Notes under the pieces: generated by a model
The model's input: the letters and a program-made list of their open reading frames with translations, nothing else
The model's database searches: none
What the model was told of the DNA's origin: nothing
Shown here: positions 62 to 766 of the stretch, in pieces
Layout of the letters: every line of letters begins with the position of its first letter
Position numbering within the stretch: the stretch's first letter is position 1
Made by a program: the position numbers and the translations under genes
NCBI GenBank assembly: GCA_019693395.1
Contig: JAAMXP010003619.1
Location: 1 to 16,229 of the forward strand
Source of the DNA: Ettlia oleoabundans
Lineage: Eukaryota > Chlorophyta > Chlorophyceae > Chlamydomonadales
Length of the DNA: 16,229 nt
Direction of reading: 5' to 3'

Positions 62-174
62 CCATTCCCTCCTGTCTGACTGAGGGATTTTACAGAGTCT
101 GCGCCAGGATACCCGCTGGCGGGGAGATACAATCAGACATGAATTCCATTCCCTCCTGTCCCACTGGGGAGGGA
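62..174. repeat. two-copy hairpin-forming direct repeat
   Basis: A 15-nt direct repeat, CCATTCCCTCCTGTC, occurs at 62-76 and again at 146-160. Both copies are followed by a related ACTG...GGGA segment. Each copy starts an inverted repeat: TCCCTC at 66-71 can pair with GAGGGA at 82-87, and TCCCTCC at 150-156 can pair with GGAGGGA at 168-174. The two copies are 84 nt apart and sit just upstream of the permuted tRNA gene. Their function is unknown. They could be remnants of a small duplicated element or regulatory hairpins. Nothing in 1-235 looks protein-coding. Confidence 0.6.
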
Positions 175-245
175 AATAGCTTTTCTACGATACAGTCAAA
201 ACAGAAATTAGGAAATCGGCGACCCGCGCAGAGGGGCACGGAGAT

Positions 246-324
246 AGCCCGAGGTCGTGGGTTCGACCCCCACATGGGATGGCGTCAGTCCCATTAGCTC
301 AGTGGATAGAGCGCGAGTTTCCTA
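246..324 (+). tRNA. circularly permuted tRNA-Arg(CCU) gene
   Basis: The 3' half of a tRNA precedes its 5' half. The 3' half (246-281) reads A38, anticodon-stem strand GCCCG (247-251), variable loop AGGTC, T-stem GTGGG/CCCAC around loop TTCGACC (257-273), acceptor strand ATGGGAT (274-280) and discriminator G281. After 6 nt the 5' half (288-324) follows: acceptor GTCCCAT (288-294), TA, D-stem GCTC/GAGC around loop AGTGGATA (297-312), G26, CGAGT (314-318), then T32, T33, anticodon CCT (321-323) and A37. Rejoined as 5' half plus 3' half this gives 73 nt. The acceptor stem is 7/7 paired with one G-U, and the T-stem is 5/5. The D-loop carries A20, an arginine identity base. The anticodon stem has one A29-C41 mismatch and one U-G pair. 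CCA is not encoded. There is no D-arm upstream of 246 and no T-arm downstream of 324, so this is not two ordinary tRNAs. Permuted tRNA genes of this layout are known from Cyanidioschyzon, prasinophyte algae and chlorarachniophyte nucleomorphs. Expression is inferred. Confidence 0.87.
260..305 (+). promoter_or_regulatory. internal RNA polymerase III B box and A box, order reversed
   Basis: GGTTCGACCCC at 260-270 fits the B-box consensus and TAGCTCAGTGG at 295-305 fits the A-box consensus. In a normal tRNA gene A precedes B; here B comes first, 24 nt before A, because the halves are swapped. TFIIIC must therefore bind in an unusual geometry, or the gene relies on upstream elements. I see no convincing TATA box immediately upstream. 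Confidence 0.7.
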
Positions 325-331
325 GGACCCC

Positions 332-346
332 TTTTTATGCTTTTTT
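332..346 (+). terminator. RNA polymerase III oligo-T terminators
   Basis: A run of five T at 332-336 lies 8 nt after the predicted end of the 5' half (324). A run of six T follows at 341-346. They fit a Pol III transcript that begins upstream of the 3' half and ends shortly after the 5' half, as expected for a permuted pre-tRNA. Confidence 0.75.
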
Positions 347-766
347 CAACACTGCCATTTACAAAGTCTACAAAGTGAAGGGGGCAACAATCTGGACGAA
401 CAGATTTAAAGTTTGAGGAATGGAAGGGGTAGGTTTGTTGGCTGCACTGCATACCGCTATGCGGCTTTATCACATTGGTTGGGAATGACGTTATAAGGAG
501 TGGTTGATACTGTTCATGTTATATTAAAATCGGATGACACTCTGATTCTAGCGAGCGGCCAGGGTTCCACTGTCCTGCCGCAGTGGGAAGCGGCCGGCAG
601 TGTCAGGCGGTGCAGATACCGCCGACGTATTGCTGGCTGTCCAGCCCCTTTGTTCTCGTCATCAGCATTCCTTCCAGTCAAAAACTTGCTTCCAAATCAG
701 CCTCTGACACAACACCCTGCCGTCTGTTGGAGCTCAAACCTGCCCTGGCACAGCTGTGCGCAGCCA
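347..766. other. intergenic region, probable methyltransferase 5' flank
   Basis: No convincing gene is seen between the tRNA terminators and the methyltransferase. The stretch has a short direct repeat (ACAAAGT twice, around 360-376) and a small palindrome CCGCTATGCGG near 458. An open frame from 500 exists, but its first half is Cys/Pro/Ser-rich and shows no recognisable domain. The first ATG followed by protein-like acidic sequence is at 767, so this region probably holds the promoter and 5' UTR. Confidence 0.4.

Follow-up and report, generated by a model that had tools for sequence, protein, structure and literature searches.

The sequence evidence strongly favors positions 246-324 of the window as a working, circularly permuted nuclear gene for tRNA-Arg(CCU), with at least three other permuted tRNA genes very probably present in this genome. 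The window, meaning the whole stretch of DNA that was analyzed (16,229 bases), is contig C968 of a 32.9-Mb draft genome in 1230 contigs, and the permuted gene sits less than 350 bases from the start of the contig. The first-pass annotation of this DNA had placed a 3' tRNA half ahead of a 5' half with a 6-nt gap between them, followed by runs of five and six Ts. On re-reading, the coordinates of both halves were right, and both T-runs were located 3' of the gene (Table 1). The 6-nt spacing of the halves on one strand and the position of the T-runs after both halves argue against a split, trans-spliced tRNA. The neighbors in the window are eukaryotic genes with introns; a UBA domain and an exon of a C-5 DNA methylase scored above Pfam cut-offs, and exon pieces of an Aladin propeller and a protein kinase scored below them. 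On the minus strand, at the very start of the contig (window 20-45), we also noted a B-box-like GGGTTCGAGTC without a proper T-stem.

Table 1. Features of the tRNA-Arg(CCU) locus in window coordinates, with the contigs (and loci) of the permuted nuclear tRNA genes
Feature	Positions	Strand	Evidence
Upstream repeat copy 1 (CCATTCCCTCCTGTCTGACTGAGG), overlapping the 9-mer ACTGAGGGA at 79-87	62..85	+	Repeat search
Upstream repeat copy 2, 88% like copy 1	146..169	+	Repeat search
Leader GGGG, pairs with trailer CCCC 328-331 (outer helix)	233..236	+	Folds
Leader GGAG, pairs with 319-322 in the 4-bp central helix	240..243	+	Fold, register count
3-nt bulge 2 (A U ^ A), predicted cut 245/246	244..246	+	Fold
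3' half, tRNA positions 38-73	246..281	+	Anatomy, ARAGORN on rejoined halves, covariance model R1
3' half detail: anticodon stem 3' strand 247-251, then variable loop and T-arm	246..281	+	
Acceptor 3' strand 274-280, discriminator G281	within 246..281	+	
B box GGTTCGACCCC	260..270	+	Pattern search
6-nt linker GCGTCA, from mature 3' end to mature 5' end in the precursor	282..287	+	
5' half, tRNA positions 1-37	288..324	+	Anatomy, ARAGORN on rejoined halves, covariance model R1
5' half detail: acceptor 288-294, D-arm, anticodon stem 5' strand 314-318	288..324	+	
Anticodon CCU 321-323, A37 at 324	within 288..324	+	
A box TAGCTCAGTGG, 3' of the B box (order inverted)	295..305	+	
UUCC (tRNA positions 32-35), pairs with leader 240-243 in the central helix	319..322	+	Fold, register count
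3-nt bulge 1 (U A ^ G), predicted cut 324/325	323..325	+	Fold
Trailer GGACCCC	325..331	+	Fold
T5 run, likely Pol III terminator	332..336	+	
T6 run, possible back-up terminator	341..346	+	
Permuted nuclear tRNA-Arg(CCU)	C968		
Permuted nuclear tRNA-Arg(UCU)	C688 (L114/L109)		
Permuted nuclear tRNA-Leu(UAA)	C342 (L077)		
Permuted nuclear tRNA-Ser(AGA)	C580 (L085)		

Rejoining the two halves gives a 73-nt molecule with an acceptor stem paired at 7/7 positions (G1:U72 being a wobble pair), a T-stem of 5/5, a D-stem of 4/4 and the anticodon loop UUCCUAA. ARAGORN named the rejoined 73-mer tRNA-Arg(cct), so that the whole arms, length and CCU anticodon of the first-pass annotation were confirmed. The anticodon stem pairs at 4/5 positions, A29 being mismatched with C41 and U31:G39 pairing as a wobble, a point absent from the first-pass annotation. 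No CCA is encoded at the end of the 3' half. In its unjoined form, the gene escaped both standard tools that we applied, as had been anticipated: ARAGORN found no tRNA in the window as written, no Rfam match there exceeded its gathering score, and the Rfam tRNA family (RF00005) likewise gave no match in the window or at C968 in the genome-wide search.

To score the permuted order directly, we used a covariance model, R1, trained on 13 organellar tRNAs of the same genome that were permuted in silico and aligned without gaps, with the permuted structure imposed and the gene of the window excluded. R1 matched 246-324 with 57.6 bits over 81/81 positions (rough E value of 2.8e-17), and this was its only match in the window at E values up to 10. 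In 30 Mb of random first-order sequence of the window's composition, read on one strand, the arrangement (T-stem 5/5 and acceptor 7/7, with a linker of <60 nt and a D-arm) occurred 0 times. The folding energy of the precursor alone was ordinary (z of -0.55 and -0.79). Together, the R1 score, the anatomy and three further permuted isoacceptors with the same leader register uphold the circularly permuted reading.

The proposed bulge-helix-bulge held in part. A 4-bp helix of leader and trailer flanked by two 3-nt bulges had been described, and the two bulges stand (U323 A324^G325 and A244 U245^A246), but the central helix forms between the leader and the anticodon loop, with GGAG at 240-243 pairing with UUCC at 319-322 (bases 32-35). 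The leader pairs with the trailer only in a further, outer helix (GGGG at 233-236 with CCCC at 328-331). The register of the leader places the predicted cuts at exactly positions 37 and 38, as first suggested, with 4/4 central pairs. When the same register, with a 3-nt bulge on each side and cuts at 37/38, was applied to all of the permuted genes, the leader could pair with bases 32-35 in 4/4 of them: at 4/4 positions in Arg(CCU), 3/4 in Arg(UCU), 3/4 in Leu(UAA) and 4/4 in Ser(AGA). This total of 14/16 is partly after the fact because the register was read first from Arg(CCU) and Ser(AGA), before counting, and those two genes give 8 of the 14 pairs. Upon sliding along the leader, 14/16 was the best of 28 registers, with the other 27 reaching 10 or fewer, and leaders with shuffled letters reached 14 in 8 of 200,000 draws. 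Among the four permuted genes, Arg(CCU) alone has a clear outer leader-trailer helix; we saw none at the equivalent place in Arg(UCU), Leu(UAA) or Ser(AGA).

These three additional nuclear genes came from the scan for further permuted tRNAs that the first-pass annotation had suggested. Each has an acceptor stem of 7/7, a T-stem of 5/5 and a complete anticodon stem, and in 4/4 permuted genes a run of at least four Ts starts no more than 10 nt past the 5' half. The linkers of the four genes are 6, 28, 12 and 30 nt long; the 28-nt linker of Arg(UCU) holds a hairpin of its own (GTGGGG..CCCCAC). A G1:U72 wobble is present in Arg(CCU), Arg(UCU) and Leu(UAA) and absent in Ser(AGA), and Leu(UAA) and Ser(AGA) are class II tRNAs in permuted form. 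R1 scored Arg(UCU) at 46.1 bits, Leu(UAA) at 22.3 bits and Ser(AGA) at 13.6 bits, the last of which was not separated from other matches at 11.9-17.3 bits when R1 was run on 71 loci; R1 is a class I model, and the class II Ser(AGA) lies outside what it models. The permuted Ser(AGA) call rests on its helices and on its identity to an intron-containing Ser(CGA) gene of the same genome (62/81 columns identical). Rejoined with A37 ending the 5' half, it was named tRNA-Ser(aga) by ARAGORN.

The four genes bear on two ways in which the order of the halves in the window might mislead. One is that the locus is a pseudogene, in which a tandem tRNA-Arg duplication lost its outer halves and left the inner 3' and 5' halves side by side by accident. 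Permuted genes are themselves usually modeled as tandem duplications that have lost their outer halves, so the layout alone would be compatible with a pseudogene, and the mismatch of A29 x C41 counts in favor of one. Against this, the other helices are whole, the ends are exact, T-runs lie 3' of the gene, the leader is in splice register and the few nuclear tRNA genes recovered include no ordinary Arg(CCT) that could serve in its place. Moreover, three other isoacceptors have the identical layout, and since they share the same leader register, a one-off rearrangement is unlikely; we regard a pseudogene as improbable. The other is an assembly or library artefact, with a chimeric or rolled-circle read joining the halves of an ordinary gene. 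The draft state of the genome and the closeness of the gene to a contig start would be compatible with such an error, but it would have to account for four isoacceptors on four contigs with linkers of four different lengths and leaders that pair in one register, and no ordinary gene was found as a source of the halves. We consider an artefact very improbable.

A permuted tRNA-like order is also found in YrlA RNAs, and the locus might encode a Y RNA-like noncoding RNA, a mimic of a permuted tRNA that binds a Ro/TROVE protein. Like the gene in the window, YrlA RNAs (RF02553) have a T-arm, an acceptor-like stem and a D-arm in permuted order, but they are not tRNA precursors. YrlA was the best Rfam match of window positions 200-400 (231-336, 30.1 bits, E value of 5.6e-05 in this 201-base search), and 231-336 was the best of five YrlA matches genome-wide (E value of 0.0022). 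This score is far below the family gathering score of 69 bits, however, and the YrlA model also matched the permuted Arg(UCU) gene (22.2 bits) and, higher, a neighboring pair of plastid tRNA genes (25.2 bits), indicating that it responds to tRNA halves in permuted order. No TROVE protein matched at E values up to 10 in an exon-by-exon search of the draft genome that ignored introns, and the anticodon loop is complete, including U33, CCU, A37 and A38, in addition to the splice register. A Y RNA-like product thus seems extremely improbable, and we retain a permuted tRNA-Arg(CCU) gene as the reading of this locus. A weak YrlA match elsewhere (17.9 bits; C402, L111) gave nothing with ARAGORN, the permuted scanner or R1.

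We searched for nuclear tRNA genes in either order by their internal boxes, taking contigs C14, C31, C780, C1228 and C1229 as organellar. The B-box pattern GGTTCGANYCC occurred at 77 places in the genome compared with 233 for the reversed control, and the pattern alone is no evidence because it is rarer than its control. Of the 77 places, 32 were on organellar-type contigs and 45 elsewhere. Inspection of all 45 revealed 8 that were tRNA-like, 4 in permuted and 4 in ordinary order. The latter comprise Asp(GUC), Tyr(GUA) with an intron, Ser(CGA) with an intron and a weak tRNA-Sec-like copy, which scored 30.4 bits with the tRNA-Sec model, under the cut-off of 47, and received no ARAGORN call. The pattern GGTTCAANYCC had 115 places, 100 of them listed, versus 118 for its control; at 47 nonorganellar places scanned with ARAGORN, the permuted scanner or R1, the only tRNA among the matches listed was a proper tRNA-Sec. 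This gene and the weak Sec-like copy lie in tandem, with the weak copy second, about 180 bases apart at one locus (L084, C534). For 28 A-box candidates (TRGCTCAGNYGG; 154 matches, 100 of them listed; control, 21), ARAGORN made no call and we saw no tRNA by eye. Viral contigs scanned with the same T-arm and A box yielded 0 matches.

Several candidates from these searches were set aside. The permuted scanner flagged the neighboring plastid Gly and His genes, which we dropped as a false positive, and we likewise dropped matches of a looser scan in AT-rich organellar DNA as well as a nuclear looser-scan match at L078, in which the acceptor paired at 6/7 positions across a linker of 84. A dispersed repeat on three contigs (L062, L117 and L121 on C46, C738 and C904) carries a B-box-like GGTTCGANTCC in near-identical flanks, and the permuted scanner found no tRNA 5' half next to it. 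On C634, a B box lies 3 bases from the contig end. A tRNA-Asn of bacterial or organellar look near the end of a GC-rich contig (L023, C610) was excluded from nuclear counts. Overall, the B-box, A-box and Rfam searches recovered few nuclear tRNA genes of any kind, a scarcity that may reflect assembly gaps, interrupted B boxes, other permutation points or the limits of the searches.

This scarcity affects whether the permuted gene can be viewed as the sole source of tRNA-Arg(CCU). The genome-wide check for an ordinary tRNA-Arg(CCT) gene, which the first-pass annotation had recommended, found none among the few nuclear tRNA genes recovered. A DNA search of the genome with window positions 230-346 matched only itself. 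The Rfam tRNA family had 55 genome matches at E values up to 10; the 30 that were extracted and named by ARAGORN with their neighbors included no Arg(CCT), and those left unextracted were all on C1228, C14 or C31. A pattern combining the D-stem and anticodon loop had 22 genome matches compared with 15 for the reversed control. One of these was the Arg(CCU) gene itself, one lay on the plastid contig, and the 20 others, nuclear candidates for a second Arg(CCT) gene, were inspected and none was a tRNA. With so few nuclear isoacceptors of any form recovered, the missing ordinary copy is weak evidence.

With the halves exchanged, the A box of Arg(CCU) comes after the B box, inverting their usual order, and we observed a candidate for an additional promoter element upstream. 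Eight nuclear tRNA genes were examined, namely the four permuted ones together with Tyr, Ser(CGA), Asp and the proper Sec, and the 9-mer ACTGAGGGA precedes four of them: Arg(CCU), where it occupies window positions 79-87, Arg(UCU), Tyr and Asp. These carriers, the last three at loci L109, L067 and L086, comprise two permuted genes, one with an intron and one plain gene. The 9-mer starts at -167 in Arg(CCU) and at about -95 to -118 in the remaining carriers; the 168-260 bases examined upstream of Leu(UAA), Ser(AGA), Ser(CGA) and Sec lack it. It had no further distinct place in the 271,588 bases examined, a figure in which overlapping loci and organellar DNA are counted and in which about two occurrences would be expected by chance on both strands. 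When eight nuclear pieces of 170 nt were drawn at random, at least four of them had a 9-mer in common in 1 of 3000 draws, with the caveat that the 170-nt control length was picked after the motif was seen and that within 150 nt ACTGAGGGA is found in 3/8. The weight of ACTGAGGGA lies in its position rather than in its count, and it is a possible upstream promoter element on the basis of sequence. In the window, its surroundings recur 84 bases downstream, and by eye some copies have short inverted repeats around them.

From this architecture, we propose a path from gene to tRNA. RNA polymerase III would produce one short transcript comprising the leader, 3' half, 6-nt linker, 5' half and trailer and ending in a T-run. 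The halves would fold into the tRNA body with the linker tying the mature ends together, leaving the anticodon loop open and the leader and trailer hanging from it. Pairing of the leader GGAG with UUCC of the anticodon loop would then create the two 3-nt bulges, at which a Sen2/Sen34 tRNA-splicing endonuclease would cut after A324 and before A246. A ligase would join base 37 to base 38 to form a circle, from which RNase P and a 3' end nuclease would remove the linker before CCA addition, and the resulting 73-nt tRNA would read AGG codons. The tRNA endonuclease catalytic family (PF01974) was over its cut-off at two places in the genome, and the best PDB matches of these loci were Sen34 (C1001) and Sen2 (C349).

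Permuted tRNA genes have been reported from a red alga, prasinophytes, a green-derived nucleomorph and a few archaea. The layout and predicted processing described here match the known permuted genes of Cyanidioschyzon, prasinophytes, the Bigelowiella nucleomorph and Thermofilum. Cyanidioschyzon merolae reportedly has circularly permuted nuclear tRNA genes, which are alike in having the 3' half first, a short linker, a bulge-helix-bulge at the junction, and cutting and joining at the anticodon loop through a circular intermediate, which in our case is inferred. In contrast to this red alga, the present host is a green alga in which the outer helix is clear only in Arg(CCU) and both AGR-reading arginine tRNAs are permuted. 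Permuted genes are also said to occur in the prasinophytes Ostreococcus and Micromonas and in the Bigelowiella nucleomorph, which likewise have green-lineage nuclear genes in permuted order. The archaeon Thermofilum pendens, reportedly with permuted tRNA genes as well, resembles the present case in gene layout and in bulge-helix-bulge cutting, here predicted, but belongs to another domain of life and uses an archaeal endonuclease. Within the genome itself, the Ser(CGA) gene (L071) is interrupted at 37/38, as is the permuted Ser(AGA), but has the ordinary order and a 40-nt intron.

The host had been taken for a probable trebouxiophyte. This remains compatible with the plastid genes of the 116-kb plastid-like contig C1228, which carries ChlI, MinD, a sulfate-type ABC ATPase and L12 above cut-off and an AccD fragment below it, but the assignment is tentative, as several other green lineages match too. 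To our knowledge, a plastid gene set of this type matches trebouxiophytes and some other green algae but not Mamiellales, and the reduced plastids of Ostreococcus and Micromonas do not match it. The host differs from the Mamiellales, whose plastids are reduced, in its larger plastid gene set (ChlI, MinD and L12).

A broader possibility, which we put forward tentatively and hold to be somewhat less likely than its converse, is that this alga routinely encodes nuclear tRNAs in permuted form. In that event, AGA and AGG tRNAs would be encoded solely by permuted genes and decoding of these codons would rely on circular precursors, while an upstream element of the ACTGAGGGA type, common with ordinary tRNA genes, would aid transcription from the reversed boxes. 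Four permuted genes in one draft genome, from a green alga whose plastid gene set is larger, would extend the reported range of such genes. As four genes that fit one leader register, they form a set for testing the processing rule, and the close intron-containing paralogue Ser(CGA) bears on how permuted genes originate. Finally, routine annotation, here ARAGORN and the Rfam tRNA family, can miss genes that are probably essential.
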